From NCBI GenBank assembly GCA_035477455.1, contig DATIKP010000069.1:1-34638 (forward strand): a DNA stretch of 34,638 nucleotides. The letters are read 5' to 3'. Under the pieces are notes generated by a model. That model was given only the letters and a program-made list of their open reading frames with translations, was not told where the DNA came from and searched no databases. This document shows, in pieces, positions 9,274 to 25,241 of this stretch (position 1 is its first letter; every line of letters starts with the position of its first letter). Both the position numbers and the translations under genes were made by a program. The DNA comes from Atribacteraceae bacterium (GTDB taxonomy: Bacteria; Atribacterota; Atribacteria; Atribacterales; Atribacteraceae).

Positions 9274-9280
9274 TCGACCT

Positions 9281-9286
9281 ACCTCC
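9281..9286 (-). promoter_or_regulatory. Consensus ribosome-binding site for ftsZ
   Basis: GGAGGT read on the minus strand, 7 bases before ATG 9273. This is one of the strongest ribosome-binding sites in the window and decides the ftsZ start. It fits the high FtsZ:FtsA ratio cells need. Confidence 0.8.
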
Positions 9287-9289
9287 ATC

Positions 9290-10555
9290 TCATCCCATCA
9301 TGAAAAAGTCTCGCAACCAATCAAACATTTTCTGGGCCCTGCCAAAGGAACTTTCGATAAAAGGCCGTGTTTTTTTCCGACTTCCCTTGGCGGACAAGGC
9401 CTGTTCCAGCAAGCCGCAGGCAGTGGAAAAGATCGGGTTCGAAATGGTTTGCACCATGCCAATATACTGTCGTCCATCTGGATACCCCCCTCTGACCGGT
9501 AAATCCAGCATCGTCGATGCAAAATCGTTGATTCCTTCCAGCAGAGATGATCCACCAGTCAGGACAACCCCTCCCCGCAAATAACGCTCCATACCAGAAG
9601 CCTTTATCTGCCGACGGAGCAAGAGAAACAATTCTTTTATCCGTGCTTCGATAATCTCACAGGCAAACTTCCGGCGAATCGTTTTCAGCGACGAGAGGCT
9701 CATATCCTTCACTTCAATCATCTCATCCGGTGAGACAAGCTTACTGAAAACTGAGCCGTATTTCAATTTGATCTTTTCCGCCTCGTCACGGGAAGTTCGT
9801 AAACCAACCGAAAGGTCGGCGGTCAGGTGTTCTCCTCCCAGCGGAATGACCCCGGAAAACCAGATACTTCCATCAAAAAACATAGCCATATCCGTCGTTC
9901 CGCCGCCAATATCGACCAGTAAAGTTCCCGCTTCCTTTTCCACCGAAGTCAATACCGACTGCGCGCAGGCATAGGGCTGAAAGATAAAGTTGGCTACCTC
10001 CAGCCCCGAATCGAGAAAACACTTATGCAAGTTTTGTATATGGCTTTCCTGAGCGGTAACCACATGAATCCGGGCCCCGAGACTACTCCCCACCATCCCC
10101 TGCGGGTCGGCGATTCCATGTTGATCGTCCACGGAAAAACTCTGAGGAATCAAGTGGATAATCCGTATCTGTTCACCGGGAATGCGGGATCGTGAACTTT
10201 CCACCACCTTCTCCATTTCCCGTTCGGTAATCTCCCGGCTTGCCCGGCTGATAAGCACTTCGTTCTCTATGTTAAACGAAGAAATTGCATCTCCGGAAAC
10301 CCCGGCCACAATCACGTTCGGTTCGCGGCGGGCAACTTCCATGGCTAACGCGAGAGAATCCCGAATTGCCAGGGTAGTTCTTTCAACATTCACCACTTTA
10401 CCCTTGCGAATACCCTGGGAAGCACTCAGGCCGATTCCCAGGATCTCGATACCCTCACCCTGGGATCGTCCGATCAGAGTACAGATTTTACTCGTGCCCA
10501 CATCCACCGCTGCAACCACCGCAGGGTTTCCGTCAATATATTTAAAAACCTTCAA
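9290..10555 (-). CDS. ftsA: Cell-division ATPase FtsA
   Basis: FtsA is the actin-like protein that tethers FtsZ filaments to the membrane and recruits later divisome proteins. The 421-residue product shows phosphate-1 AVDVGTSKI (about 16-24) and phosphate-2 [15 protein letters not shown], separated by the family's 1C domain. An adenosine-type [13 protein letters not shown] motif follows. The last dozen residues ([12 protein letters not shown]) make the amphipathic membrane-targeting helix. The start is an unusual TTG at 10555 that overlaps the ftsQ stop as TTGA, with AAGGTGAG 5 bases upstream. No ATG occurs near the expected start, so TTG is well supported. Confidence 0.96.
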
Positions 10556-11268
10556 AAAGACTCACCTTCGTTTCGAATCAAGACGATGTCCCGTCTCATT
10601 CTCAAATCGAAACCTCCCACCTGGAGAGCTTTAATCTGTACCTCTCGCAAAAGTGGTGCGAGCAAGGCCGCTTTATCTTGCAGATTACGCGGTCCTTCGC
10701 TCCTAATAAATATACCATTATACAAATTCAAAATAAATAACTTTCGATCTTCGACCCGGATCTCCGTCAGGGGCGTTTCAAATGTTTCTTTCCATAGATC
10801 GATCATTTCCAACGCATCGGCAAGGGCTCCGGAATCATAATAATCCATCCAGATGCGGGGTAGTGAGGCGGTCTCCTCACGAATATTGGACACTTCAAAC
10901 GCATCCCGGTCGACACAATACGTGACATCACCGATCACCACGACAGCAAAGGGCTCCCGCTCTTCGATCTCGATCAACAATGCCCGTGGAAACACTTTTT
11001 TCACTCGTGCATCCCGGACCTCAAGAATTCTCTCCAATCTTCTTTCCACTTCCCAGGCCCGGATGCCAAAAATATTCTCTCCGGGAAGCACTCCAGATGT
11101 TTCAATAACCAAGCTTGTCGCTAATCGGTGATTCCCGGTGACGGTAATTTCCTGAATCCTGAGGAAATCGCTACGCATGAGCAGAAAGAAAATCATCCAG
11201 GAGAGAAGACCCAGGGCGAGATAAAAAAAAAGGATACGAAGAAATATTTTTACCTTGTTAAGACCCAT
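10552..11268 (-). CDS. ftsQ: Division protein FtsQ/DivIB
   Basis: FtsQ/DivIB is a bitopic membrane protein that links FtsL and its partners to the cytoplasmic divisome. The 238-residue product has a short basic cytoplasmic tail and one transmembrane helix (about 10-30). The POTRA domain begins at FLRIQEITVTGNHRL and continues with IRAWEVERRLERILEVRDA and KVFPRALLIEIEEREPFAV. A beta-rich C-terminal domain follows. ATG 11268 shares its A with the murB TAA stop and has GAGGT 6 bases upstream. The frame also has an upstream TTG at 11274 that I reject. The murB-ftsQ-ftsA-ftsZ order is the usual one. Confidence 0.93.
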   Translation of the reverse strand: MGLNKVKIFLRILFFYLALGLLSWMIFFLLMRSDFLRIQEITVTGNHRLATSLVIETSGVLPGENIFGIRAWEVERRLERILEVRDARVKKVFPRALLIEIEEREPFAVVVIGDVTYCVDRDAFEVSNIREETASLPRIWMDYYDSGALADALEMIDLWKETFETPLTEIRVEDRKLFILNLYNGIFIRSEGPRNLQDKAALLAPLLREVQIKALQVGGFDLRMRRDIVLIRNEGESF

Positions 11269-12200
11269 TACCAAACCTCTATTTCATTTTCCAGGATGAT
11301 TCCCCTTTTCCTGTAAACCTCGCTTCGTATCCATTCGATCAGAAAATGAACCTCCCGGTACGTGGCCCGTCCTCGATTGATAATAAAATTCGAGTGCCTG
11401 GTCGAAACTTGCGCGTCCCCGACCCGAATACCCTTAAACCCCATGGCCTCGATAATCCTGGCGGCATAATCTTCAGTTGGATTTTTAAAAACACTCCCGG
11501 CAGAAGGATAGCCGATAGGTTGAGTTTTTTTCCGTAACAAATTATAATTCCTGATTTTCTCTCGGACAGCTTCCGGCGGAGAGGGTAGCAAATGAAAACG
11601 GGCCTTGAGAATAACATGGCGCTTCAGACGTAGGGTCGAATGACGGTAAGTAAATCCAGCCTCTTCTTGCTCAAGCCACCGCGTTGTACCATCACCATTC
11701 CTGACCAGAATTTGTTTGGCCAGGCGACCGATTTCCTGGCCAAAACAACCGGCATTCACCAACAATGCCCCGCCAATCGTTCCCGGCACCCCAACCAGAA
11801 ACTCCACGCCGGTCAAACCATGGAAGAGAGAAAGGCTCACCAGTTTAATCAAGCGGGTTCCCGATCCTGCCTCGATTTCACATGAACCAACCAACTCGAG
11901 CTGGGCAAAATCTCCTTCCAGGATGATTACAACGCCATTGAACCCCCGATCATCGACGAGAATATTCGATCCCTTACCAAGGATGCGCCAGGTAATTCCC
12001 CGCCGATCAAGAAAGGCGATGAGACGGTTCAGGGCCTCGACACATCGAACCTTCACCAGGGCTTTAGCCTTGCCGCCGATTTTCCAGGTGGTGAGACAAC
12101 GCATCTCCGGTTCGGGAAGGAAATCCCATCCCTGCGTCTTGGCAAGCTCCCGACGGAGAAGAATCAGGTCTTCCCACACAAGCAGGTGCCTACCTTCCAC
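11268..12200 (-). CDS. murB: UDP-N-acetylenolpyruvoylglucosamine reductase
   Basis: MurB reduces the enolpyruvyl group to give UDP-MurNAc, using FAD and NADPH. FAD-binding motifs are present: TTWKIGGKA, RILGKGSNILVDDRGF and VGVPGTIGGALLVNAGCFGQ. So are the active-site elements YRHSTLR (Arg), PSAGSVFKNP (proton-donor Ser) and the terminal ENEIEVW (Glu). At 310 residues it is the compact type common in Gram-positives. The start is uncertain. GTG 12200 overlaps murC by 37 bases with GGGAG 10 bases upstream, while GTG 12179 would overlap by 16. Neither has an ideal ribosome-binding site, and translation is probably coupled to murC. Confidence 0.95.
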   Translation of the reverse strand: MEGRHLLVWEDLILLRRELAKTQGWDFLPEPEMRCLTTWKIGGKAKALVKVRCVEALNRLIAFLDRRGITWRILGKGSNILVDDRGFNGVVIILEGDFAQLELVGSCEIEAGSGTRLIKLVSLSLFHGLTGVEFLVGVPGTIGGALLVNAGCFGQEIGRLAKQILVRNGDGTTRWLEQEEAGFTYRHSTLRLKRHVILKARFHLLPSPPEAVREKIRNYNLLRKKTQPIGYPSAGSVFKNPTEDYAARIIEAMGFKGIRVGDAQVSTRHSNFIINRGRATYREVHFLIEWIRSEVYRKRGIILENEIEVW

Positions 12201-13549
12201 ACATCACCCGCTCCCATCGTGATCAGGAGATCGCCGGGCTCCAGCCATTCCTCGAGTATTCGAACGGCATCATCCAGGCTTTCCGAGAGAAAGGCCTGAT
12301 CATAACCTTTCTCTTTCATCGCCCGGTAGACGAGTTCGGATGTGACGTTCTCAACGGGCCTTTCTCCCGCCGGATAGATGGGAAGTATAAGCACCCGATG
12401 AGCGCTGCCCAGCATCTGCGCCATTTCCCGATACAGCCTGCCGGTGCGGGTATACCGGTGTGGCTGGAAGACTACCACCAGGCGTCCCGCCGTCTGATGG
12501 ACGGCAGCCTGGAGAACCACCTCCATTTCGGTGGGGTGATGAGCGTAGTCGTCCACCACCTGTGTACCACGATAGAATCCAATGCACTCAAACCGCCTCT
12601 TGACTCCGCTGAACGAAGCAATCGCATCCCTGATTGTGGATGAACCGATTTCCAGCTCCACACCGACGGCAATGCAGGCTAAGGCATTCAGGACATTGAA
12701 GAGTCCGGGAATATTAGTCTCGAAATCTCCCAGACTGTGCTTTCCGTTACTCACTCGAAAGGCGTACCCTCGTTGTTTTTCCCTGAGGACCAGTGCGCGG
12801 CAATCCAGTTCTTCCTCGGTCATACCATACGTCAACACCCGAAAGGAACGCTTCCTGGTGGGAATGATGGTTCGAACATTAGGATGATCCTTGCAAAGCA
12901 CGGCCAGCCCTCCCGGTTTGATACGCTCCAGAAAGATCTGATAAGCTTCGACTGCCTTGTCCATGGAGCCGTAATGTTCGAGATGATCGTCTTCGATGTT
13001 GGTTATGACGCCACAATAAGGTCTCAGCTTCAGAAACGATCCGTCACTCTCGTCGGCTTCAGCTACAAAAAGATCACTCTCTCCTATCTTGGCGTTTCCG
13101 CCAATATCTTCCAGTTCACCACCGATGAGGACGGTCGGCTGAAGCCCTGCCGTCTCCAAAAGGAGGGATATCAACGAGGTGGTGGTCGTTTTCCCATGGG
13201 TTCCGGAAACGGCGATGCCTCTTTTCCGGTTGAGGAGAGATGCCAACATCACGCCTCGATGAACAATAGGGAGTCTTAACTCACGGGCCGCGCACAACTC
13301 CTCGTTCTCCGCAGGTATCGCCGATGAGACAATCACCGCTCCGTTTCGCTGGATTCTTTCCCGACAATGCCCGACATAAACAGGAATGCCCCGTTCCCGC
13401 AGGCGTACGGTCATTTCACTCTCGGTTATATCCGAACCACTCACCCGGTAACCCATTCCCCGGGCAATGAGCGCCAGACCACTCATACCGGTTCCCCCGA
13501 TACCAATGAAAAAGAGGTCTCGGGGTAAGCTGAGGGTCTCTCTCTCCAA
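12164..13549 (-). CDS. murC: UDP-N-acetylmuramate--L-alanine ligase
   Basis: MurC adds L-alanine to UDP-MurNAc with ATP, the first Mur ligase step. The 461-residue product has the N-terminal UDP-binding FFIGIGGTGMSGLALIA and the P-loop VSGTHGKTTTTSLIS. The carbamylated-lysine/metal region (EADESDGSFLKLRP, ITNIEDDHLEHYG) and the C-terminal DDYAHHPTEM and FQPHRYTRT motifs of MurC follow. The frame is open to a GTG at 13567, but AGGAGG (13557-13562) lies 7 bases before TTG 13549, so TTG is the likely start. It opens the second half of the division cluster after a spacer of about 430 bases and may have its own promoter. Confidence 0.96.
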   Translation of the reverse strand: MERETLSLPRDLFFIGIGGTGMSGLALIARGMGYRVSGSDITESEMTVRLRERGIPVYVGHCRERIQRNGAVIVSSAIPAENEELCAARELRLPIVHRGVMLASLLNRKRGIAVSGTHGKTTTTSLISLLLETAGLQPTVLIGGELEDIGGNAKIGESDLFVAEADESDGSFLKLRPYCGVITNIEDDHLEHYGSMDKAVEAYQIFLERIKPGGLAVLCKDHPNVRTIIPTRKRSFRVLTYGMTEEELDCRALVLREKQRGYAFRVSNGKHSLGDFETNIPGLFNVLNALACIAVGVELEIGSSTIRDAIASFSGVKRRFECIGFYRGTQVVDDYAHHPTEMEVVLQAAVHQTAGRLVVVFQPHRYTRTGRLYREMAQMLGSAHRVLILPIYPAGERPVENVTSELVYRAMKEKGYDQAFLSESLDDAVRILEEWLEPGDLLITMGAGDVWKVGTCLCGKT

Positions 13550-13556
13550 TGCAATT

Positions 13557-13562
13557 CCTCCT
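13557..13562 (-). promoter_or_regulatory. Consensus ribosome-binding site for murC
   Basis: AGGAGG on the minus strand, 7 bases before TTG 13549. It sets the non-ATG start of murC and excludes the upstream GTG at 13567, which lies beyond the site. Confidence 0.75.
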
Positions 13563-13591
13563 AACACATTAAGATGATGTCAAACACTCGG

Positions 13592-13620
13592 AATACACTT
13601 ATTTGAACCCAGATCATCAA
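13592..13620 (-). promoter_or_regulatory. Possible weak promoter before murC
   Basis: On the minus strand TTGATG (13620-13615) and TGTATT (13597-13592), 4 of 6 consensus matches each, are 17 bases apart. A transcript starting near 13585 would give a leader of about 36 bases before murC. The matches are modest and the call rests partly on the presence of a long spacer. Confidence 0.3.
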
Positions 13621-13648
13621 CGGGTACCATGTGAGCAAGGCTCATATT

Positions 13649-13930
13649 TCAATAAGGATGCCCGGGAAGACTCTCCTCCTGGCCGGCTCGGCCACCTATC
13701 GGAAAGCGGCCTTCCCCCCCGGACACATTTTTCGGGCTCCGCGGGCTAGAGAGGGTCGCGCTTCGAACACCAAGCCGGATTAGGCCACGCAACGACCCGG
13801 ATACCAGTTCCCTGGTGATACAGGCATGTACTATAACCACCTTGATACAGAAGGCCTCTCCGGGCTCATGAAGGACTCCCGGCACCAGAGTAACGCCGCT
13901 CTCTTTCGCCGATGGTTTTAGGTTCAACAT
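13649..13930 (-). CDS. Doubtful 93-codon frame in the murG-murC spacer
   Basis: An ATG-started frame of 93 codons, read in the same direction as its neighbours. The first 45 residues look protein-like (KESGVTLVPGVLHEPGEAFC, then IKVVIVHACITREL). The rest is Gly/Ser/Pro/Arg-rich and looks like translated GC-rich spacer. There is no convincing ribosome-binding site (only GCGG upstream) and I recognise no family. It could be a small orphan gene, a remnant of a lost gene, or chance. It is listed so the interval is not silent. Confidence 0.18.
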   Translation of the reverse strand: MLNLKPSAKESGVTLVPGVLHEPGEAFCIKVVIVHACITRELVSGSLRGLIRLGVRSATLSSPRSPKNVSGGEGRFPIGGRAGQEESLPGHPY

Positions 13931-13982
13931 ATAACCGCTTAATCATTCATTTTCCTGTTCGATGCCGTCGGGCCCCGACCGG

Positions 13983-15068
13983 TTAACCCCTCTGTAATTC
14001 CTCAACAATGGCTTTGGCAATGAGTTCGGCAGCTTCTTGTCGGCCTTCCTGACCATTCCACGATTCCCGCTTGAGGGCAAACATCCGCTCAAGCGCCCGG
14101 GCCAGGTTGATGGGATTGAATTCCCGTTCTCCGAATACCTCTACCGGCTGTCTTCTCCGAAGCCAGCCCGCGTTCAATTCCTGATGACTCTCGGTCGCCC
14201 CTTCGAAGGGGATCATGATGGCGGGAAGTTGAAACCAGTCCACCTCAAAGGTCGTGCTGGCCCCAGCTCGGCAAACCACAACGTCGGCTGCGGCATAGGC
14301 CGCTCCTGGATCAGGAAGAAAATCGAATACCAAGTACCGGCCGGGATCATTCGCAACAAACTGCCCAAGGGGCCGGCCTTCCTCCTTTCCGGTCGTATGA
14401 ATCACCTGAAAGGGAGTACCAGTCCAGTTTCGCCATACTTCCGCAAAAACCCGGTTGATCAGGGAAGAGCCCAGGCTGCCGCCAATGACAAACACGGTAC
14501 GAAGGTCAGGCTTGAAGCCGAAGAAAGCTCTGGCTTCCTCTTGTTTCCCTCTCCATTCTCGAACGGTTTTCCTCAGCGGATTCCCCGTCAGGGAAATTGT
14601 ATCCTGATTTTGAAAATATGCCAATGAATCCTCGAAAGAAATAAAAATTTTTCTGGCCCACCGGGAAACAACCCGATTAGCCAGTCCCGGCAGTACATTT
14701 TGTTCGTGGACAAAAAGGGGGATACGGAAGATCCGACCCCAGAATCCGATGAGCAAAGAAACATAGCTTCCCATACAGAGAATTCCGCAAGGTCGCTGCG
14801 CGGCAATCAACCTGAAGGCCTGGAAAAACCCGATGGTATTAAGTAGAAGCATACGGAAAAAAGACCATCCAAGCGTCCGGTCCCAACCCCGGGCGCAGAT
14901 GTAGTGAAGAGGAAACCCGGCTTGGCCGATAAACCGGTCCTCCATACCCCTCCTGGTTCCGATAAAGTGGACTGCGAGCACACCTTCCTTTTGGAGTTCT
15001 TCGGCAACGGCTAATCCGGGAAATATGTGACCTGCGGTACCGCCGGCACAAATATAGAATCGTCTCAT
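13983..15068 (-). CDS. murG: Lipid II-forming N-acetylglucosaminyltransferase MurG
   Basis: MurG transfers GlcNAc from UDP-GlcNAc to lipid I on the cytoplasmic membrane face, producing lipid II. The 361-residue GT-B enzyme has the acceptor-side glycine loop CAGGTAGHIFPGLAVAEEL and VHEQNVLPGLANR. The second loop is VFVIGGSLGSSLINRVF. The donor-binding segment VVCRAGASTTFEV continues into PFEGATESHQELNA with the usual His-Gln pair. Its ATG overlaps the ftsW stop by 4 bases. It is the last gene before the unusual spacer that splits the cluster. Confidence 0.97.
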   Translation of the reverse strand: MRRFYICAGGTAGHIFPGLAVAEELQKEGVLAVHFIGTRRGMEDRFIGQAGFPLHYICARGWDRTLGWSFFRMLLLNTIGFFQAFRLIAAQRPCGILCMGSYVSLLIGFWGRIFRIPLFVHEQNVLPGLANRVVSRWARKIFISFEDSLAYFQNQDTISLTGNPLRKTVREWRGKQEEARAFFGFKPDLRTVFVIGGSLGSSLINRVFAEVWRNWTGTPFQVIHTTGKEEGRPLGQFVANDPGRYLVFDFLPDPGAAYAAADVVVCRAGASTTFEVDWFQLPAIMIPFEGATESHQELNAGWLRRRQPVEVFGEREFNPINLARALERMFALKRESWNGQEGRQEAAELIAKAIVEELQRG

Positions 15069-16231
15069 CCGACATTACCCTTTTTCCGGGAAGCGATATT
15101 GAAAAGAATGCCTATCTTGATCAGGGTTATAAGCAGCGATGAATTGCCATAACTCATCAAAGGTAGAGTGATTCCGGTAATGGGTATGATTTTGAGGACG
15201 ACACTCAGATTGATCGTTGCCTGAACAAAGATGCTGAGCGTGAGACCCATGGCCAGAAGTCCCTCAAATTCATTCTGGGTCTGAACGGCTATCCGCCAGC
15301 CTCTCCAGAGGATAACGCCAAATAATACGAGAATGGACAGGGTGCCCACAAAACCGAATTCCTCACCGATAATCGCAAAAATGAAATCGGTATGCCGTTC
15401 GGGGAGATAGAAAAATTTCTGCCGGCTTTCCCCCAGTCCCAGACCGAAAATGCCTCCCGATCCCAGGGCGATCAGAGATTGAATGATTTGAAAACCCTTC
15501 CCCAGCGGATCTTTTTCCGGATTGAGAAAGGATTCGACCCGGGCTCTCCAGTAAACGTTTCCACTGAAAAAAACCAGGAAAAAAACGGTGGGAATGATGA
15601 TAATCACCGGCAACAAAAGGTGAAAAATACGTCGGCCACCCAGGTAAAGCATGAGAAAGGCAATGATCACAAGAAATAAGGCGGTCCCCAGGCTAGGTGC
15701 GAGAAGAACCAGCAGGCACGTTCCCCCGACGACAAGCAGAAAGGGAACGACACCGTATATAAAGTCCTGAGCCCGGTCCCGATAATGGACCAAGGCATCG
15801 GCCATGTACAGGATGACACTCAACTTCGCCAATTCTGAGGGCTGAAATCCAATGGCGAGCCAGCGGTATGCCCCGCCCACTTCGCGGCCGATGCCAGGGA
15901 CAAAGACAAGAATGAGCAGGATAAAGGAAAAAACGAGCAACTTACGGCTCAGACGCCGCAGCAACTCCAAGTTGAATACGCTGGCCGCCACAAAAAAAGG
16001 AAGGGATACTCCAAGCCCTACCAGATGCCTTTTCAAAAAAAAGAAGGGATCGGCGAAGAGATCCAGCCCAGTCGTCATGCTGGCGCTGAAAACCATGACG
16101 ATTCCCAAACTGAGCAGGATGAGCGTCGACCAGAAGAGGGGAGGGTCAATATCCCACCACCATTCCCAGTTTACTTTCTCCATCCGGAAAATTTTAAAAC
16201 GATGGAGAGGGGCTTGAGGCAGTTCAACCAT
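15065..16231 (-). CDS. ftsW: SEDS glycosyltransferase FtsW
   Basis: FtsW polymerises lipid II into septal glycan with its partner class-B PBP. The 388-residue product has about ten transmembrane segments. It has the large-loop signature GGAYRWLAIGFQPSELAKL, LLAPSLGTAL and ERHTDFIFAIIGEEFGFVG. The late motif is ITLPLMSYGNSSLL. Most SEDS proteins have SYGGSS here, so the Asn is a small deviation. ATG 16231 overlaps murD by 8 bases and has GGAGG 7 bases upstream, so it is preferred over a second ATG at 16183. Its place between murD and murG argues for FtsW rather than RodA. Confidence 0.95.
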   Translation of the reverse strand: MVELPQAPLHRFKIFRMEKVNWEWWWDIDPPLFWSTLILLSLGIVMVFSASMTTGLDLFADPFFFLKRHLVGLGVSLPFFVAASVFNLELLRRLSRKLLVFSFILLILVFVPGIGREVGGAYRWLAIGFQPSELAKLSVILYMADALVHYRDRAQDFIYGVVPFLLVVGGTCLLVLLAPSLGTALFLVIIAFLMLYLGGRRIFHLLLPVIIIIPTVFFLVFFSGNVYWRARVESFLNPEKDPLGKGFQIIQSLIALGSGGIFGLGLGESRQKFFYLPERHTDFIFAIIGEEFGFVGTLSILVLFGVILWRGWRIAVQTQNEFEGLLAMGLTLSIFVQATINLSVVLKIIPITGITLPLMSYGNSSLLITLIKIGILFNIASRKKGNVG

Positions 16232-17558
16232 GAATCAACCTCCGGAAGTGCTCTCCCCGATCTTCAAAGTTCCGGTACTGATCCCAGCTGGCGCATCCTG
16301 GAGAAAGAAGGACCACATCACCCATACCGGCGATCAGGCGGGCCCTCTGTACAGCCTCTGCGAGGTCGTGAACCTGGCAACAGAGAAGTTCACCCGGGAT
16401 AAATTCTTTGAGCAAATCTCCCGATTCTCCGAAAAGAATGACCGCCTTGATCTTGTCCTGAGTCAAGACAGCACTCAATTCAGAGAAATCCGGCAATTTG
16501 GCCCGGCCGCCCACCAATAGAACCAGAGGTCCCGCGATCGACTCGACCGCAGCCCGGGTCGCCGCCGGGGTCGTCGACTTCGAATCGTTGATAAACAGAA
16601 CTCCATTGTATTCCTCCACCGGTTCCAAACGATGCGCCAGGCCCCTGAAGCGCCCCAGCGCCCGCTCAATCGAAGGAATGTCCACCCCAGCTGTCCGGGC
16701 TGTGGCAACGGCACAGAGGAGATTTTCCAGGTTATGGAGTCCCGGCAATTTCCAAGCCTGAGTCGAAAGAGAATAGCGATGACCACACCATTGTTCCCTG
16801 ATGATCAGTCCATCGTAGAAAAACCCTTCGGAAAGCCGTCCTTGCGTGGAAAAGGGCACAATCCTCGAGCGGCTCAAGCGGCAAAAAAGAGTATGCCAGG
16901 AAGATCTGCTGGAATTGATCAGAGTGAAATCTTCCCGACACTGATTATTCAATATGCGGGCTTTGGTGAGCGCGTAATTGATCATTGTCCGATGCCGGTC
17001 GAGATGATTGGGAAAAACGTTGAGAATCGCGGCCAGATGAAAACGGGCTGTATAGGTTCTTTCCAGTTGAAAACTGGAAACCTCCACCACTCCCCACTCG
17101 TAGCGAGTTCCTGAAAGGCAGGCCTCCAACAACGGGGTCCCCAAATTCCCTCCCACAAAAGCCGGGATTCCCGCCTCGTGAAATATCGCACCGACGAGGG
17201 AAACGGTGGTGCTCTTTCCATTTGATCCGGTGATGCCAATCAGCGGAAAAGACAGAACCCGGGAAGCCAGCTCAATCTCGCTGATCAAGCTGATTCCCCG
17301 GCTTTGTAAAGCTTTGACGAGAGAATGATCACCAGGTACGCCGGGGCTGACGATTCCTTCATGGAAAGGATGGCGGACGAGACGACCCCACTGGTCATTC
17401 GGAATGAAATTAAATCCGGGATGTGAGGTGATTTCCGCAGGGATCGCCTCAGGAGCAAGGTTGTCGTCGACCGCAAAAACCCGCTCGCCGTGATCCAGAA
17501 GAAACCGTGACACCTTGAGGCCTGTGTTTCCCAATCCAATGACAATATAATCGGGCAC
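16224..17558 (-). CDS. murD: UDP-MurNAc-L-alanine--D-glutamate ligase
   Basis: MurD adds D-glutamate to UDP-MurNAc-L-Ala. The N-terminal Rossmann segment is DYIVIGLGNTGLKVSRFLL, the P-loop GITGSNGKSTTVSLVG, and the central metal/substrate region VSSFQLERT and NVFPNHLDRHRT. The family motif NDSKSTTPAAT is followed by VLLVGGRAKLPDF. GTG 17558 is chosen because AGAGGA is 7 bases upstream and it gives a standard N-terminus (MPDYIVIGLG) of a 444-residue enzyme. The frame stays open to 17588 inside mraY. A four-base gap separates it from the mraY stop. Confidence 0.95.
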   Translation of the reverse strand: MPDYIVIGLGNTGLKVSRFLLDHGERVFAVDDNLAPEAIPAEITSHPGFNFIPNDQWGRLVRHPFHEGIVSPGVPGDHSLVKALQSRGISLISEIELASRVLSFPLIGITGSNGKSTTVSLVGAIFHEAGIPAFVGGNLGTPLLEACLSGTRYEWGVVEVSSFQLERTYTARFHLAAILNVFPNHLDRHRTMINYALTKARILNNQCREDFTLINSSRSSWHTLFCRLSRSRIVPFSTQGRLSEGFFYDGLIIREQWCGHRYSLSTQAWKLPGLHNLENLLCAVATARTAGVDIPSIERALGRFRGLAHRLEPVEEYNGVLFINDSKSTTPAATRAAVESIAGPLVLLVGGRAKLPDFSELSAVLTQDKIKAVILFGESGDLLKEFIPGELLCCQVHDLAEAVQRARLIAGMGDVVLLSPGCASWDQYRNFEDRGEHFRRLIHG

Positions 17559-17562
17559 CAAC

Positions 17563-18531
17563 TTATCCTCTAATTCCCAGGACCGCAATCACCGCTCCCA
17601 AGGCCTGGACCATCCAAAAACGCAAAGTGATCTGATGTTCCTTCCATCCTCGCAATTCATAATGATGATGCAGTGGACTCATGAGAAAGACTCTCTTTCC
17701 AAAAATTTTAAACGATGTCACCTGAATGATTACGGAAAGTGTTTCCAGAACAAAGACGAATCCACAAAACAACAGGAGGAGGGTTTGGCCGGAAGCCAAG
17801 GCCATAAACCCGAGAAGAGCCCCCAATCCCAGAGAACCGGAATCTCCCATAAAAATTTTCGCCGGCCAGGCGTTAAACCATAAAAAGGCGAAAAGCGCGC
17901 CGGCTATCGAAAGATTAAGAGCCGTCATTCCCGGATTGCCGGTCAAAAAGAAAAACCATCCCCAAAAAAGAAAAGAAATTATGCCACACCCACCAGCCAG
18001 ACCGTCCAAGCCGTCGGAAATATTGAAGGCGTTCGTTGACGCCAAAAGCACAAAGACACCGAACAAAAAAAAGAGGGGTCTGGATAGGGTGAGGGTAATC
18101 TGGGTGAACGGGAGGCTAATTTCGGGAGAAAGATTCTGCACCATCCAGCCCATGACCATCCCGGAGAAAACCACCTGGGCAAGAAATTTGAAACGGGCTT
18201 TAATACCCCAGGGTTTTTCCAGAAAACTCTTGAAATAATCATCCAAAAACCCGATCGCGGTAAACGAAACGACAACGATCGCGGGAAAAACCCAGGCTCC
18301 CATCCATTCTTTCCGGAAAAGAGCGGTCAGAACGATGGAGAAGACGATAACCATCCCACCTATACTGGGGGTATTCTCCTTGTGAAGATGCAGATTCGGG
18401 CCTTCTTTTTTTATTTTCTGACCCAAGCTCCGTCTCCTCTGCCAGTTGATAAAAAAAGGAAACACCACCAAGCCGATCGCCCAGGACAGGAGAAACGCCG
18501 TAAAGCCATCCCGCAGATGAGTGAATCCCAT
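17563..18531 (-). CDS. mraY: Phospho-N-acetylmuramoyl-pentapeptide transferase
   Basis: MraY moves phospho-MurNAc-pentapeptide from UDP to undecaprenyl phosphate, making lipid I. The 322-residue polytopic protein carries the polyprenyl-phosphate transferase motifs: GFLDDYFK (catalytic Asp pair), NAFNISDGLDGLAGG, FNAWPAKIFMGDSGSLGLG and SPLHHHYELRGWKE. ATG 18531 shares one base with the murF stop (TGATG), with GGAGGAG 6 bases upstream. A GTG at 18534 and a GTG at 18546 are in frame but placed poorly relative to that site. Confidence 0.97.
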   Translation of the reverse strand: MGFTHLRDGFTAFLLSWAIGLVVFPFFINWQRRRSLGQKIKKEGPNLHLHKENTPSIGGMVIVFSIVLTALFRKEWMGAWVFPAIVVVSFTAIGFLDDYFKSFLEKPWGIKARFKFLAQVVFSGMVMGWMVQNLSPEISLPFTQITLTLSRPLFFLFGVFVLLASTNAFNISDGLDGLAGGCGIISFLFWGWFFFLTGNPGMTALNLSIAGALFAFLWFNAWPAKIFMGDSGSLGLGALLGFMALASGQTLLLLFCGFVFVLETLSVIIQVTSFKIFGKRVFLMSPLHHHYELRGWKEHQITLRFWMVQALGAVIAVLGIRG

Positions 18532-19931
18532 CACGGGCTCCTCCACTCCATCGGTATCGCCCGTTCCATCTCCATCGCCCGCGAACCCTTAAAAAGAATT
18601 ACCCATTTGCGCGGGGAAATGGCCAGTTTTTCACGAAAGATGGCGGTTCCCTCAGCGTGTGATGAAACCAGAAACACTCCCTGCCCCGCCGCATCACCGG
18701 ACAAGACCTGGTCGGCCGCCCGATGAAATACAGCGCCCAGGAGAATGACCTGGTCGATCCGCAACTTCAGAAGAAAACGTATTAGCTCCTGATGGGCCCG
18801 ATCAGAGGCATCGCCCAACTCGAGCATATCCCCCAGGACCGCCCAGGTTTCATAGCCTTTCTGCCGAAAACCGTCTAGAAGATGAATCGCTTTTTTCATC
18901 GAGAGGGGATTTGCGTTATAGGTATCATCGATAACGACTCCGTTACCGATCCAGGTCAGGGTTTCCCTGCCAGGTGAGGCAACCATGGCTTCCGTCCGTT
19001 CCACAATCTGTGGGAGGGTGATCCCGCATTCAAGGGCAAAATGAACGGCCGGTCCGAGGAGAAGCGCCACTTCCGGGCTGACAATTTTCGAACGGAAGAG
19101 AGGCCGATCCCGACCGATTCGCAACTGGAACCGTGATCGTACGGTATCCGGCTCAAAGGTGAATTCTTCCAGGACAATATGGGATGAGGGGTGGTCGGGA
19201 CCACCGAAAGTTACTATTTCAGGCCGGTTACTCTTCGCAAGATCCCGGATACTGGCAAAGCACCGGTTGCCGGTATAGAGGTACACCCGCCGGGTTTTCC
19301 CGCAAACCAAACGCATTTTTTCCCTGGCTACCGTCTCCACATCTCTCAAGCCCTCCAAATGGCCCTCTCCAAAGGGAGTGAAGATGGCTATTTCCGCCTG
19401 GGCCAGAGATGACAATTCCGCCATCTCCCCGGGGTGATTGATACCCGCTTCCAAAAGGTAATAACTGCTGGTAACCGAGAAATTACACAGGGAGACCGCC
19501 ATACCTATAACGGTATTGAAACTGCGGGGAGTGGCCTCGACCTGGAAGCGGGATGAAAGTAACTCCTGAAAGAAGCGCTTGGCCGTCGTCTTCCCCACTG
19601 TGCCGGTAAAAGCCAGGCGAGTACCCTGGAGAAGACCGGTACACGCTTTCCCCAGATTTTTCAGGGTATTTTCGGTGTCCGTCACACGAAAAACGGTAAA
19701 ATCCGGCAGAAAACATCCGTCCTTTTCCACCAAAGCCCCGGCGGCTCCCCGTTTCCAGGCATCAGTAAGGAAGTTATGCCCGTCGGTTCTCTCGCCCCGC
19801 AAAGCTACAAAGAGCGTATCCTTGGAACACTCCCGGCTGTCAATGGCAATCCTGGCAAACAATCCGGCTGAACCACGAGAAACCATCGTCGCCCCGGTCA
19901 GAGATTCAATCTCTCCGGGTTTGAACCGCAT
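18531..19931 (-). CDS. murF: UDP-MurNAc-tripeptide--D-Ala-D-Ala ligase
   Basis: MurF attaches D-Ala-D-Ala to UDP-MurNAc-tripeptide to complete the pentapeptide. The 466-residue product has the substrate-binding DSRECSKDTLFVALRGERTD, P-loop FTGTVGKTTAKRFFQELL, ITHPGEM-like ILEAGINHPGEMAEL, and the family motif DDTYNANPLSMKKAI. AVLGDMLELGDASDRAHQEL follows. ATG 19931 lies within the end of murE (26-base overlap) and has AGGAGG 6 bases upstream. No ddl gene for the D-Ala-D-Ala substrate is present in this window. Confidence 0.97.
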   Translation of the reverse strand: MRFKPGEIESLTGATMVSRGSAGLFARIAIDSRECSKDTLFVALRGERTDGHNFLTDAWKRGAAGALVEKDGCFLPDFTVFRVTDTENTLKNLGKACTGLLQGTRLAFTGTVGKTTAKRFFQELLSSRFQVEATPRSFNTVIGMAVSLCNFSVTSSYYLLEAGINHPGEMAELSSLAQAEIAIFTPFGEGHLEGLRDVETVAREKMRLVCGKTRRVYLYTGNRCFASIRDLAKSNRPEIVTFGGPDHPSSHIVLEEFTFEPDTVRSRFQLRIGRDRPLFRSKIVSPEVALLLGPAVHFALECGITLPQIVERTEAMVASPGRETLTWIGNGVVIDDTYNANPLSMKKAIHLLDGFRQKGYETWAVLGDMLELGDASDRAHQELIRFLLKLRIDQVILLGAVFHRAADQVLSGDAAGQGVFLVSSHAEGTAIFREKLAISPRKWVILFKGSRAMEMERAIPMEWRSP

Positions 19932-21429
19932 GGATCCCCTCCTGAATAAATGATCGCACTATTTCTAAATCATTGTGGTTGATACTGTAATCAGCAAAAA
20001 TCTGGCTCCGTTCCGGACCTTTGCCTGCCAGGAAAACAATATCTCCCGGCCCGGCAGCCTGTAAAGCCTGACGGATCGCTTCTCTTCGATCGACGATGGC
20101 CCGGTACTCCACCGCCCTGACCCCGGCTTTCTTGCATACGCCTTCCAAGGCGTCGTTAATGGTGCTCATTGGATCTTCATGGCGAGGATTGTCGGTGGTG
20201 AGAATACAAAGATCGCTCCACCGGGCAACAGCCTCTCCCATCAACGGTCTTTTCCGCTTATCTCTCTCTCCACCGCAGCCGAAAACGCTAATGATTTTTC
20301 CGCTGGTCAGGTTACGAACCAGGGAAAGACTCTTCTCCAGAGCGTGCCAGTTATGGGCGAAATCAACGATGATCTCAAAATCCTGACCGGCGCGGACACG
20401 TTCCCACCGCCCGGGGACCCGCGGGGTTAACGCCAGCCCCCGGGCAATCGTTTCCTGGGTCAACCCATAAAACAGCGCAACGCTCACCGCACCCAGCGCA
20501 TTATATACATTGTGGAGACCGGGCTGGCTGATCTGGAGCGGGAACGTTCCCCAGGGACTTTGTACGGTAAATTCGGTCCGGTCGAAGGCGTGTTTCGGGT
20601 TTACCGCCCGGACATCCACCCCCCGCTCGATACCGAATGTGATCAGAGGGACATTGTATCCGCCGGCCATTCGCATTACTTCGGGGTCATCCCCATTGGC
20701 GACGACGAGGGGGGGGGTAGTTTTTTCCCGATTCGCTTCCACCATGGACAAAAGCTTTTTTTTGCTCGCGAAATAGTGATCGTATGTCCCATGAAATTCC
20801 AAATGTTCCGAGACCAAGTTGGTGACCACCGCGGTATCAAAAAGAATCTCCGCCACCCGGCCCAGAGCCAGCCCATGCGACGACACCTCCATGACCGTGT
20901 GCCGAATACCTTTTTTTAACAGGGCGTCAAGTCGGGACGAGACGCTCAAGGCGTCCTCGGTGGTATTGACCGACTCGTATTCCTCGTTGCCGATCAAGTT
21001 CTTCACGGTCGTCAGCAGCCCGCATGGCCATCCGCCCTCTTCAAAAATGCTGTGCAGTAAGAAACAGGTTGTTGTTTTGCCATTGGTACCGGTAATCCCC
21101 ACCACGTGCATCTTCCGGGACGGATGACCGTAAAACACCGTGGAAATATGGGCCATCGCCTCGCGAACATTGGAAACCAGGATATATGGGACGTGGTCTT
21201 GAATTTCTGGAATCGAATTCCGATCCTGGATGACGACCAGCACCGCACCCCGGTCAATCGCTTCGTTCAAAAAGAGGTGACCATCGGTATTTGCCCCGGG
21301 GAGGGCAAAAAAAACATATCCCGGACGTACATGACGGGAATCGGCCGCCAGCCCTCGTACCTCACAATCCCCGTTTTGCCGGTTTTTCCCGAGAACCGTT
21401 AATCCGCTTGTTATCTCGCGTATATTCAA
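19906..21429 (-). CDS. murE: UDP-MurNAc-tripeptide synthetase, meso-DAP type
   Basis: MurE adds the third amino acid of the stem peptide. The 507-residue ligase shows GLAADSRHVRPGYVFFALPG, the P-loop VVGITGTNGKTTTCFLLHSI, VTNLVSEHLEFHGTYDHY and VFGCGGERDKRKRP. The specificity motif reads TTDNPRHEDP. DNPR, with its Arg contacting the second carboxylate, marks meso-diaminopimelate enzymes, whereas lysine enzymes have a different sequence there. The wall is therefore inferred to be DAP-type. The TTG start at 21429 overlaps the ftsI stop as TTGA, with GAGGT about 9 bases upstream. Confidence 0.96.
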   Translation of the reverse strand: MNIREITSGLTVLGKNRQNGDCEVRGLAADSRHVRPGYVFFALPGANTDGHLFLNEAIDRGAVLVVIQDRNSIPEIQDHVPYILVSNVREAMAHISTVFYGHPSRKMHVVGITGTNGKTTTCFLLHSIFEEGGWPCGLLTTVKNLIGNEEYESVNTTEDALSVSSRLDALLKKGIRHTVMEVSSHGLALGRVAEILFDTAVVTNLVSEHLEFHGTYDHYFASKKKLLSMVEANREKTTPPLVVANGDDPEVMRMAGGYNVPLITFGIERGVDVRAVNPKHAFDRTEFTVQSPWGTFPLQISQPGLHNVYNALGAVSVALFYGLTQETIARGLALTPRVPGRWERVRAGQDFEIIVDFAHNWHALEKSLSLVRNLTSGKIISVFGCGGERDKRKRPLMGEAVARWSDLCILTTDNPRHEDPMSTINDALEGVCKKAGVRAVEYRAIVDRREAIRQALQAAGPGDIVFLAGKGPERSQIFADYSINHNDLEIVRSFIQEGIHAVQTRRD

Positions 21430-23120
21430 TAGATCCGAACCTCTGCATCCTGAGACGGAATGCCCAGGTAATTAATAACATTCTGTGCGATATCCCGAAA
21501 CACCGGTGTGGCGATCTCGCCTCCATAAAACGCGCCTTGCGCTTCATCCAGAACAACGACAATGCCTATCTGGGGATCGGGGAGAGGGAAAAAACCGGCG
21601 AAGGACGAAACAAATCGATCCGCCATATAAAGGCCGTCCGGTCCGATTTTCTGTCCGGTGCCTGTCTTTCCTCCGATCCGGTATCCGGGAATGACCGCCC
21701 TTTTACCGGTTCCCTCTTCTGCGGCCTTCTCCATCATGTGCAATACGAGCCACGCTGTATCGGCGCTGATCACCCGGCCAGCCGGCGCTGGGAGATGTTC
21801 CCTGACCGGTTCACCATCCAGGGTTTGCACCCGCTGGACAATCCGGGGATGCATCAATACCCCTTGGTTTGCGATCGCCGAAAGGGATTTTAACAGCTGA
21901 AGAGGCGTTACCAACATTTCCTGCCCGATGGGAACAGCACCGATCGAAAGGGCTGACCATTCCCGAAAAGGGCGCAACAGCCCACTTTCCTCTCCCTCGA
22001 GAGGAAGCTTGGTAGGTTCGCCGATTCCAAAATCTTTGAGATAGCGAAAGAGACGTTCTTCTCCCAACCGTTGCGCCAGTTGTATGACCCCGACATTGCA
22101 CGAGTCGGCGATAATCTCCTCCAGTTTCAGATCGCCATGGGCATTGATATCCCGCATTCGATGATTATACACCATTATATGGCCCGGACAATAAAACGCT
22201 TCTTGAGGGTGAGTCAGTTTTTCTTCAAGGCTGGCGGCCACCACCAGCGGTTTGACCGTCGAACCCGGTTCGAAAACCATCCCGATGGCCAAATTTCTCC
22301 ACTTATCGGGATCGTAGGCCCAGAAATGACTGTTGTCGAAGGTAGGCCGGGCCACCATGGCCAGTATGTCACCGGAACGGGGATCGTTGACCACCACCAC
22401 GCCCCTTTTGGCCTTAGTGCTCTCCATAGCCTGATCCAGCGCGCGTTCAGCGAAAAATTGGATTGAACTGTCTATAGTAAGAATAACGTCATTCCCCGGT
22501 TTCGGGTTTAAAAAGCCGGTACTACCGGGTATTTCCCGACCGGTTGCGTCACGCTCGTAGGTAACAAAGCCGACTTCCCCCGTCAATTCCTGGTCAAAAG
22601 TAAATTCGACTCCTTCCAACCCCCGATGGTCAGTCCCGACAAAACCGACGAGATTACTCAAGCGGGGCGCTTGTGGATAAAAGCGAATATTCTCTCTCCG
22701 CCACTCAATACCCGGTAAATTCTCCTTCCGCAATACTTCTTCCAAATAGAGCGGGACCTTCCTTTGTATCCAAACGAAACTGAGCGGGCTTTTCAGACGG
22801 ACAAACAACTCTTCTTGATCCATAGTGAGGATGCGAGCCAAATGTTTGGCGGTTTCTTCAGGGTTGACAATCAGAGAAGGAAGGGCATAGACTGAAATAG
22901 CCTCGAAATCCCTGGCAATGGCTTCATTGTGCCGGTCGAGTATTTTACCCCGTGGAGGAACGAGGTCTTCGACCCGCATTCTGATCAGGTTTGCCCGTTG
23001 CCGGTAGACGTCACCATAGGTGATCTGCACGGTATACAAACGAAACCCGATGTAAAACAAGAACGTGAAGAGGAGGAAGACCAGAAAATTTGTCCGGTGG
23101 ACAAATTTTCTCGAATTCAT
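21426..23120 (-). CDS. ftsI: Class-B penicillin-binding protein (FtsI/PBP3-like)
   Basis: It is the septal DD-transpeptidase that crosslinks glycan made by FtsW. The 564-residue protein has a short cytoplasmic tail, one transmembrane helix (about 11-30), and the pedestal domain with ARDFEAISVYALP. The transpeptidase motifs are STVK (nucleophile Ser287, Lys290), SCN (340-342) and KTGTGQ (485-490). No PASTA repeats follow, unlike SpoVD or PBP2x. ATG 23120 overlaps ftsL by 4 bases. Its location between ftsL and murE favours the division enzyme over the elongation paralogue. Confidence 0.95.
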   Translation of the reverse strand: MNSRKFVHRTNFLVFLLFTFLFYIGFRLYTVQITYGDVYRQRANLIRMRVEDLVPPRGKILDRHNEAIARDFEAISVYALPSLIVNPEETAKHLARILTMDQEELFVRLKSPLSFVWIQRKVPLYLEEVLRKENLPGIEWRRENIRFYPQAPRLSNLVGFVGTDHRGLEGVEFTFDQELTGEVGFVTYERDATGREIPGSTGFLNPKPGNDVILTIDSSIQFFAERALDQAMESTKAKRGVVVVNDPRSGDILAMVARPTFDNSHFWAYDPDKWRNLAIGMVFEPGSTVKPLVVAASLEEKLTHPQEAFYCPGHIMVYNHRMRDINAHGDLKLEEIIADSCNVGVIQLAQRLGEERLFRYLKDFGIGEPTKLPLEGEESGLLRPFREWSALSIGAVPIGQEMLVTPLQLLKSLSAIANQGVLMHPRIVQRVQTLDGEPVREHLPAPAGRVISADTAWLVLHMMEKAAEEGTGKRAVIPGYRIGGKTGTGQKIGPDGLYMADRFVSSFAGFFPLPDPQIGIVVVLDEAQGAFYGGEIATPVFRDIAQNVINYLGIPSQDAEVRIY

Positions 23121-23452
23121 TGCTGCAATACTCGATCAGCAATATTGGCTGCGATATGCTGTTCCGGTTCCTGTCTTTCCGCTTGAAGCGTGCTTCCGGA
23201 AGCTAGATATATGGTTTCTGTTGGTTGAACCATGCCCAACCGGTTTGTGGCAATTTCCCCGATCCGATCCAGAGAGGCCGCCTGGGCGATAGCCACCTCC
23301 AATCGGTTCCGCTCAGCCAAAAGACTTTCCACGCGTCCCCTTTTCATATCCAAAAGAAATGACCGGTTGACAAGTTGAGCCTGAACCGCCAAATAGGCCA
23401 AAGACATACACAGAACGAACATTAGAAATAGAATCTGATACACTCTGGTCAC
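23117..23452 (-). CDS. ftsL: FtsL-like small bitopic division protein
   Basis: FtsL forms a coiled-coil complex with FtsQ/DivIB and DivIC/FtsB and activates FtsWI. The 111-residue product has one transmembrane helix at about residues 6-25 (YQILFLMFVLCMSLAYLAVQ). A heptad-like periplasmic helix (about 35-62) and the short conserved-type end RIGEIATNRLGMVQPTE follow. FtsL sequences diverge strongly, so the call rests on topology and on its place between rsmH and ftsI. GTG 23452 overlaps the rsmH stop (GTGA). Confidence 0.85.
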   Translation of the reverse strand: MTRVYQILFLMFVLCMSLAYLAVQAQLVNRSFLLDMKRGRVESLLAERNRLEVAIAQAASLDRIGEIATNRLGMVQPTETIYLASGSTLQAERQEPEQHIAANIADRVLQQ

Positions 23453-24354
23453 GGTTTCTCCCCCTCTGGTACCGGTGCCTTCCGGGCCACCCGCAAGCGG
23501 GCACTCCGGCTCCGGGGATTTTCCTTGATTTCATTGTTTCCGGTTAGAATCGGCTTTTTGGTTTCGACAACCAAACGGCTGTCCCCCCGAAAAAAAGTTT
23601 TTACCTGACGATCCTCTAATGAATGGTAGCTCAGGATAACGATCTTCCCTCCCGGCTCGAGTAAAGCAGGGACCTTTTCCAAGGCGTTCCTCAGTTCTTC
23701 CAGTTCATGATTGACGAAAATACGGATCGCCTGGAAACTCCGGGTGGCCGGATCGATTTTTCCTCGCGACCATCCCAGTGCCCGGCGGATAATTCCGGCC
23801 AATTCCCCAGTGGTTTCCACCGGCTTTTTTTCCCGGTAACGCACTATAGAACGGGCAATCCGGCGTGATTTTCTTTCCTCTCCATACCGGTATAGAATGT
23901 CTGCCAATTCTCGTTCCGGAAACGTGTTGATCACCTGACCGGCGGACAGCGTCTGACCGGGATCCATCCTCATATCCAACGGACCGTCCTCCCGGAAACT
24001 AAACCCGCGATGCGGGGTATCCAATTGCCGTGAGGATACGCCCAAATCGCATAATATTCCCGAAACTTGCGTGATTTGCAGGGAATCGAGAATCCGGTCA
24101 ATGTCGGAAAACGAACCCTGGATCAAGGTCAACCGGGAACGAAAGGGATCTAACCACCCGCGTGCCGCATCAAGAGCGTCCGGATCCCGATCGATGCCTA
24201 CCAGGCGGGCTTTCCCCGAAAGAACAAGAAAAAGCGCACGAGCATGACCACCTCCCCCCACCGTACAATCCACATAAATTCCATCCGAACGGTGTGCCAG
24301 ACAGCGGCAAACCTCACCAGTCATGACCGGCCGATGAAAGCGGTATTTATTCAT
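23449..24354 (-). CDS. rsmH: 16S rRNA m4C1402 methyltransferase RsmH
   Basis: RsmH N4-methylates C1402 of 16S rRNA in the decoding centre. The 301-residue product shows FHRPVMTGEVCRCL, SAM-binding YVDCTVGGGGHARALF, VGIDRDPDAL, and ILCDLGVSSRQLD. GFSFREDGPLDMRMDP, a family hallmark, follows, then VILSYHSLEDRQVK. Its ATG makes an ATGA overlap with mraZ. Formerly mraW, it nearly always follows mraZ at the head of the dcw cluster. Confidence 0.97.
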   Translation of the reverse strand: MNKYRFHRPVMTGEVCRCLAHRSDGIYVDCTVGGGGHARALFLVLSGKARLVGIDRDPDALDAARGWLDPFRSRLTLIQGSFSDIDRILDSLQITQVSGILCDLGVSSRQLDTPHRGFSFREDGPLDMRMDPGQTLSAGQVINTFPERELADILYRYGEERKSRRIARSIVRYREKKPVETTGELAGIIRRALGWSRGKIDPATRSFQAIRIFVNHELEELRNALEKVPALLEPGGKIVILSYHSLEDRQVKTFFRGDSRLVVETKKPILTGNNEIKENPRSRSARLRVARKAPVPEGEKP

Positions 24355-24782
24355 ATGCCGGTATCCATCAAGCCTTTACCGATTTCCTCATACCGTCCTT
24401 CCATTTCTGTGGAGTAGCGGTTCCATCCCTCTTCGGACCAGATTTCAATGCGGGTTCCCGTACCCACTACCATGGCCTTCCGCTTCAGGTTGGCACGTTC
24501 TCGGAGCGGCCGGGGAATCATGATCCGTCCCAGGGGATCGGGACTGACTGAAGCGGCGTTGGCCAAAAATATCCGGGAAAAACTCCGACCTTCCTCTCTG
24601 GTAAGGGGTAGAGAAGCTATGCTTCGATACAGGCGTTCCCACTCTTCCTGGATAAAGACAAAGATACACCCTTCCAGCCCCCGCGTGAGATAGATCGTAT
24701 CCGAGAGGTTTTTACGGAAATCATCTGGTATAATGATTCTGCCCTTGTTATCGATGGAACGCTGATGATGACCAAGAAACAT
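24351..24782 (-). CDS. mraZ: Transcriptional regulator MraZ
   Basis: MraZ is an AbrB-fold DNA-binding protein that assembles into rings and regulates its own dcw operon. From ATG 24782 the product is 143 residues, the family norm, and begins MFLGHHQRSIDNKGRIIIP. Both tandem swapped-hairpin domains show the D-x-x-G-R motif: DNKGR near residue 11 and DPLGR near residue 82. GGAG lies 7 bases upstream. The frame remains open to 24848, but that start lies upstream of the predicted promoter. A four-copy GTG repeat directly upstream looks like its operator. Confidence 0.96.
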   Translation of the reverse strand: MFLGHHQRSIDNKGRIIIPDDFRKNLSDTIYLTRGLEGCIFVFIQEEWERLYRSIASLPLTREEGRSFSRIFLANAASVSPDPLGRIMIPRPLRERANLKRKAMVVGTGTRIEIWSEEGWNRYSTEMEGRYEEIGKGLMDTGI

Positions 24783-24797
24783 GGGGACTCTCCAAAC

Positions 24798-24833
24798 ACC
24801 CACCTTTTTCCACATTCTATCACTTATTCCCAC
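24798..24833 (-). promoter_or_regulatory. MraZ operator: four GTG repeats with exact 10-base spacing
   Basis: On the minus strand GTGGGA (24833-24828), GTGATA (24823-24818), GTGGAA (24813-24808) and GTGGGT (24803-24798) recur every 10 bases. This is one DNA turn, between the putative -10 element and the mraZ ribosome-binding site and partly over them. MraZ is known to bind tandem GTGGG-type repeats with this kind of spacing upstream of mraZ. Autoregulation of the whole dcw transcript is therefore inferred. Confidence 0.8.
24814..24822 (-). promoter_or_regulatory. Extended -10 promoter for the mraZ-murG operon
   Basis: TGATAGAAT on the minus strand: TG, one base, then TAGAAT (5 of 6 to TATAAT). 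No convincing -35 box is seen 16-18 bases upstream, which is typical of extended -10 promoters. The predicted transcript start is near 24807, giving a 25-base leader. The element lies within MraZ repeats 2 and 3, so MraZ binding would occlude it. Confidence 0.55.
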
Positions 24834-24889
24834 AAATTGATAGATCAACTCCCTTTTTCGCTAGTTTTCCAGATAATTTCGTAGGTTGG

Positions 24890-25009: not shown

Positions 25010-25241
25010 TTGATTCTGCTGCAATAAGTAATTTTGCTGCAAAAGAACGAAGAAAGCCCGGGCCTGAGTTGCCTGAATCAGCCGCCGAAATCACCGCATT
25101 TTCGAAGTAAATATGCCAAGGATGCCCTTTTCAGCATCACTGTAACCAGACGTGGTCATTGATGCGTGCGATAAAACACCAGATGAGGCGGGGCTGAGGG
25201 CAACGGGGCCTTGCTGAAATGAGTTTTTGCAGCAAAATCAA
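25010..25241. repeat. Tandem and inverted 18-base repeats centred on TTTTGCWGCAAAA
   Basis: Two 18-base units lie head to tail at 25010-25027 and 25028-25045. An inverted copy at 25224-25241 matches the first at 16 of 18 positions. Two copies contain near-perfect palindromes, TTTTGC-T-GCAAAA (25032-25044) and TTTTGC-A-GCAAAA (25225-25237). A related AATGAGTTT..GCAG element occurs at 24989 and 25218. The outer copies enclose about 230 bases with inverted ends, which would fit a small non-autonomous transposable element or a set of regulator-binding sites. Confidence 0.5.

Follow-up and report, generated by a model that had tools for sequence, protein, structure and literature searches.

Repeats of the kind considered here, upstream of mraZ, are reportedly bound by the MraZ protein of E. 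coli, and MraZ of M. gallisepticum is said to act as an activator. The conserved DNA-contact loop of MraZ carries an arginine, R15 in the E. coli protein. The array preceding mraZ in E. coli K-12 reads GTGGGAAATT GTGGGGCAAA GTGGGAATAA GGGG, i.e. three GTGG units and a GGGG in 10-bp steps, and it is situated downstream of TTGACA...TAAACT. For B. cenocepacia, published work describes an EMSA shift of PmraBc by purified MraZ and a site downstream of the -10 that consists of four 7-nt repeats with 3-nt spacers and overlaps the transcription start, the repeats having been inferred by inspection of the bound fragment (PMC7761207). In Mollicutes, according to PMC5282649, the MraZ site is (AAAGTGKN3)3 in the promoter of mraZ itself and MraZ binds as an octamer. 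In M. genitalium, deletion of mraZ raised the other dcw (division and cell wall) genes by log2 2.1-3.0 (PMC8475190).

Our literature search for MraZ together with Atribacter returned nothing relevant, and a search of an R. sphaeroides paper (PMC5089854) for MraZ-site terms found none. A search for structural papers on MraZ-DNA also found none, though MraZ has PDB entries (9qlg, 9qlr, 9r4j, 9sx6, 9sz7 and 1n0e). Here we compare the mraZ upstream region of an Atribacteraceae genome with these systems and with its counterparts in Atribacterota and Spirochaetota.

Sequences and samples

The window, i.e. the whole stretch of 34,638 nucleotides that was analysed, is contig 69 (DATIKP010000069.1) of the 174 contigs of a 2.16-Mb genome (GCA_035477455.1). 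In the phylum sample 45 of 50 genomes had an MraZ match; one of these (G044, locus L055), with a partial domain in a 63-aa frame, was left out, giving 44 upstream regions. MraZ matches were present in 52 of 120 Spirochaetota genomes, 51 of which entered the spacing analysis while the 52nd (G050) was taken as locus L080. The named loci number 37, and those that belong to the family of the window (L056-L062) were counted once only. Five named loci were excluded, three (L064, L068 and L069) because the assumed start codon read GTA and two (L063 and L065) because the start was uncertain. The MraZ tree was computed from 43 of the 44 phylum sequences, the incomplete sequence of G021 being left out.

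The mraZ gene and the dcw cluster

The following genes were identified in the window:

24351..24782, minus strand: mraZ, 143 aa with two MraZ domains and an ATG start; first gene of the dcw cluster
23449..24354, minus strand: rsmH (mraW), Pfam Methyltransf_5, overlapping the end of mraZ
8224..23452, minus strand: other dcw genes (DivIC/FtsL-like, PBP transpeptidase, Mur ligases, MraY-like transferase, ftsA and ftsZ) by Pfam, in a search covering the ORFs outside the interval 10.5-17.6 kb

The order is mraZ, rsmH, the DivIC/FtsL-like gene (which scores just below the Pfam cut-off), PBP and Mur ligases, followed later by ftsA and ftsZ; judged by its gene content this is an ordinary dcw cluster with mraZ first. 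Both domains of the encoded protein belong to the MraZ family (PF02381), with 57.4 and 52.8 bits against a curated cut-off of 23, and a second search gave 108.5 bits. The DNA-contact loops read DNKGR (residues 11-15) and DPLGR (82-86) and align with DSKGR and DGAGR of E. coli; D11, K13-G14-R15, D82 and G85-R86 are invariant in all ten MraZ proteins of the window's family.

In the list of open reading frames the mraZ frame (24351-24848) starts at a TTG at 24848 and runs through the operator described below, whereas MFLG, the conserved N-terminus, starts at 24782. Annotation from the TTG would thus bury the regulatory region within the mraZ gene. Seven of the ten family members (G001-G007, L014-L020) have GTG or TTG instead of ATG as the mraZ start codon. 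The gap upstream of mraZ spans about 430 bp and contains, as judged by eye, short inverted copies resembling TTTTGCTGCAAAA and TTTTTGCAGCAAAA at 25010-25240.

A phased array of four GTG units precedes mraZ

Read on the minus strand from 24833 to 24798, GTG occurs four times at exact 10-base steps, and positions 24833-24794 read, 5' to 3', GTGGGAATAA GTGATAGAAT GTGGAAAAAG GTGGGTGTTT, followed by GGAGAG. The elements are:

24824..24833, minus strand: operator unit 1, GTGGGAATAA, upstream of the -10; GTGG also in G008 and G009
24814..24823, minus strand: operator unit 2, GTGATAGAAT, with the extended -10 inside
24804..24813, minus strand: operator unit 3, GTGGAAAAAG, holding the predicted transcript start
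24794..24803, minus strand: operator unit 4, GTGGGTGTTT, from pattern search and sequence
24788..24793, minus strand: ribosome-binding site GGAGAG, from the sequence

The gap between the end of the array (24798) and the mraZ ATG is 15 nt, and unit 4 starts 21 nt before the ATG. Both direct reading and the pattern search thus bear out the claim, made in an earlier note on this DNA, of four GTG units in exact 10-base steps directly before mraZ. The array has the defining properties of an MraZ operator, i.e. at least three direct GTG repeats with a 10-bp period upstream of mraZ. With phased GTGG units that are kept in relatives and with mraZ directly downstream, it is, on these sequence features, almost certainly an operator for MraZ.

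The array pattern (34 bases) had a single match in the window and no match in 100 dinucleotide shuffles. Four GTGs at exact 10-base steps are found at a single site in the genome (2,161,246 bases), namely the mraZ array; the reversed-pattern control is uninformative for this search, since reversal leaves the pattern unchanged. In the 100 bases upstream of mraZ the score for four phased GTGG units was 15 of 16, a value reached by none of 300 shuffles. No further MraZ target emerged from the same genome with the exact fourfold GTG pattern, and no site has three exact GTGG at 10 bp, both searches covering exact matches only.

Conservation in Atribacterota and Spirochaetota

The earlier note had suggested aligning the mraZ upstream regions of related genomes, where loss of the 10-base phasing would count against its reading. 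Phased repeats were found there, and the 10-bp phasing turned out to be the best-kept property of the region. All ten genomes of the window's family have four units, nine of them with a perfect score (16/16), and the window has one GTGA. The degeneracy of unit 2 to which the note had drawn attention is therefore real in the window (GTGA for GTGG), but it is private to this genome within the family, and the two nearest relatives have GTGG.

Across the phylum, the four-unit score was matched by at most one of 300 shuffles in 43 of the 44 upstream regions. The exception, G010 (36/300 shuffles), has an 11-base step that breaks the phase, and its three-unit score was matched by 1/300. In families f6 and f7, all 19 genomes (L021-L039) have three units, typically AAAGTGGAGT, with one or two units starting ATGG in G027, G043 and G049. 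These three-unit arrays are nearer to the Mollicute consensus AAAGTGKN3 than is the array of the window. In the remaining families of the order the number of units varies from two to four, and degenerate ones (ATGG, GGGG or ATGT) occur among them. Genus-weighted counts of GTGG-GTGG distances in the phylum were 32.1 at 10 bp, 19.05 at 20 bp and 6.0 at 30 bp, the top shuffle value for any of the three distances being 2.0.

The same spacing prevails in the 51 upstream regions of Spirochaetota, with 49 GTGG pairs at 10 bp against a shuffle mean of 0.35 and a maximum of 3; a few genomes (e.g. G067, G099 and G137) are without a convincing array. Four phased units are present in each of the 19 spirochaete loci L074-L092, where unit 2 reads GTGTA(C/G)ATT. 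In 18 of these 19, TCCCA, which is complementary to a GTGGGA-type unit, directly follows unit 4 and could form a hairpin, as judged by eye.

A predicted extended -10 element lies inside unit 2

The window has one further element within the array:

24814..24822, minus strand: extended -10 TGATAGAAT (TGnTAGAAT), sharing its TG with unit 2; TAGAAT invariant in the three clade genomes

The element reads TG A TAGAAT, the hexamer matching TATAAT at five of six positions, and by its spacing the transcript would start at about 24807, in unit 3. The best -35 at 16-18 nt from this nested -10 matches at only three of six positions, and a scan for sigma-70 promoters (at least 9/12 over both hexamers) listed none. 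The case for the nested promoter therefore consists of the extended -10 and its conservation in three genomes only. These three, the window's genome (G000), G008 and G009, form one clade in the MraZ tree (local support 0.94). They keep TAGAAT at 6/6 positions, the spacers of units 1, 3 and 4 keeping 0, 2 and 2 of six, and they share little upstream of the array. This separate constraint on TAGAAT is the strongest argument for a genuine -10, and the conservation of the element supports the proposal that the array overlies an extended -10.

The other seven genomes of the family (genera g2 and g3) have a strong predicted promoter, TTTACA-17-TATATT with an extended TG, starting 7 bp before unit 1, at a position that no longer resembles a -10 in the window's genome, G008 and G009. 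In the outlying families of the order the promoter scan mostly placed the best -10 at the array's edge or upstream of it. The nested form being confined to a three-genome clade and the outlying families having this placement, the nested arrangement is probably derived, a polarity that we infer from sequence comparison. The automatic scan was inconsistent and gave implausible sites in the AT-rich families f6 and f7, and only the result for family f1, with high and consistent scores, was relied on. Among Spirochaetota it returned no promoter for G104 and G145, and it placed a hexamer downstream of the array in 13 of the 19 named loci.

Like the window, the spirochaete loci L074-L092 combine four phased units with a -10-like hexamer in unit 2, which the scan picked as the best promoter in 5 of the 19, but there the TG abuts the hexamer with no extra base between. 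With GTGTA(C/G)ATT as unit 2, these loci may offer another example of a -10 nested in this unit.

A dyad upstream of mraZ in other families

Outside the window's family the order is represented by 15 genomes, of which 12 (G011-G015 and G018-G024; loci L040, L041 and L045-L054) carry a dyad, [G/A]AAC-N4-GTTC, 81-98 nt before mraZ; it is absent from the window's own family. A thirteenth match, in G010, is at a different place (153 nt). In genus g6 the dyad overlaps the predicted -35. It resembles a Gram-positive LexA box. LexA was tried as the binder of the dyad and was not supported, as in the same 12 genomes the dyad occurred in none of the 12 stretches upstream of lexA (180 nt, at most one mismatch) and, with G015 left out, in none of 11 stretches upstream of recA. 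The recA loci numbered 18 in all, with another gene apparently located a short way upstream in most of them. Of all 30 lexA upstream stretches examined, one, in family f7, carries the dyad.

Comparison with described MraZ systems

The array shares with that of E. coli the GTGG units at exact 10-bp steps right before mraZ, and unit 1 of the window is identical, base for base, to unit 3 of E. coli. It differs in having four good units and in straddling an extended -10, whereas the E. coli array is downstream of its promoter hexamers. The window resembles B. cenocepacia (PMC7761207) in having four repeats that overlap the transcription start (a predicted start in the window), while the B. cenocepacia site is downstream of the -10 and the window has the -10 inside unit 2. 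With the Mollicute site (PMC5282649) the array has in common the GTG core, the 10-bp period and the location in the promoter of mraZ itself; three repeats are given there, and the units of the window are without AAA before GTG.

The earlier note had presented four units, rather than three, as unusual. This does not hold: all ten genomes of the family have four, as does the inferred site of B. cenocepacia, and in E. coli three units are followed by a degenerate fourth. Four units are thus not new, and overlap of the operator with the start region is also known. That the predicted -10 lies inside unit 2 and not ahead of the array is no bar to membership, since placement downstream of the -10 is a trait of the E. 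coli and B. cenocepacia examples and not of the operator definition. The distinctive detail is the promoter geometry, which is a modest variant and not a new class of system. In the literature searched, whose coverage did not extend to Eraso 2014 and Fisunov 2016, we met no extended -10 that lies within a repeat unit and has its TG in common with it, and we do not claim the arrangement to be unreported.

Discussion

What the DNA itself shows is a phased, conserved array that overlaps a conserved -10-like element. On this basis we consider it probable that the four GTGG units, phased at 10 bp, serve as operator for the MraZ encoded downstream and that bound MraZ would exclude RNA polymerase, so that the mraZ-rsmH-fts-mur operon would be autorepressed. 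In detail, and by analogy with MraZ of other bacteria, several adjacent subunits of the MraZ ring would approach the DNA from the same face and recognise one GTG apiece. Unit 1 would lie where RNA polymerase contacts the spacer between -35 and -10, unit 2 is predicted to be built around the extended -10 with the TG shared, and units 3 and 4 would cover the predicted start and the early leader. MraZ binding, use of the nested -10 and repression as the sign of regulation are the most likely interpretation of the analysis. The direct repression expected in the earlier note is plausible. Occlusion of the -10 from both sides would not be a family-wide rule, since the best promoter is just upstream of the array in seven of the ten family genomes.

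The main biological rival is activation, in which MraZ binds the array and, for example, aids polymerase at a promoter that has no -35. The window indeed has no recognisable -35, in contrast to TTTACA at 17 nt in the sister genera, and activation is what has been reported for MraZ of M. gallisepticum. Overexpression of MraZ in that species was also accompanied by more FtsZ (PMC8475190). A protein that covers the -10 and the start will normally keep polymerase out, however, and MraZ of both E. coli (annotated as a repressor) and M. genitalium represses; we therefore regard activation as quite unlikely. The main structural rival places the promoter elsewhere, further upstream, so that the array would belong to the transcribed leader and MraZ would use it as a roadblock; that the arrays of E. 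coli and B. cenocepacia follow the -10 suggests such a role. The missing -35 of the nested element, the gap upstream of mraZ and the best promoter being upstream of the array in most compared lineages are consistent with this. Against it, TAGAAT is the most conserved array spacer in the clade and the three clade genomes have little in common upstream of the array, and we consider a roadblock unlikely.

Two further readings concern the repeats themselves. A G-quadruplex, as proposed for the mraZ promoter region of S. aureus, where a G4 motif downstream of the promoter has been reported (PMC11796246), would accord with the several GG and GGG runs in the window. These runs are mostly GG, though, the first two are about 17 nt apart, and the exact 10-bp spacing, the strongest conserved property here, is not needed by a G-quadruplex; this explanation appears very improbable. 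The array might also be a product of chance, or simply a purine-rich leader around the ribosome-binding site. With equal base use, about 0.3 exact fourfold GTG sites are naively expected per 4.3 million positions, and one such site per genome is not rare by itself. But the site adjoins mraZ, and its spacing is common to all ten family genomes and to two phyla. The conservation of the array already refutes chance, which we find scarcely credible.

Returning to MraZ autorepression, the comparison allows a more tentative proposal, towards which we lean less than we doubt it. In one clade of Atribacteria the promoter might have moved about 21 bp into the operator, such that the TG of unit 2 would be read by both the sigma factor and MraZ, with one MraZ subunit placed directly on the -10. 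A similar arrangement in Sphaerochaeta-like spirochaetes would be an independent case. The operator would then stay fixed while the promoter slides in steps near a helical repeat, which could convert downstream hindrance into direct competition.

Taken as predicted, the array extends the MraZ operator to a phylum, Atribacterota, that is represented mainly by genomes of uncultured organisms. Throughout the comparison, the 10-bp phase is conserved much more strictly than where the promoter stands with respect to the array. The loci thus make natural variants available for asking whether MraZ represses by occlusion of the -10 or by blocking early transcription.
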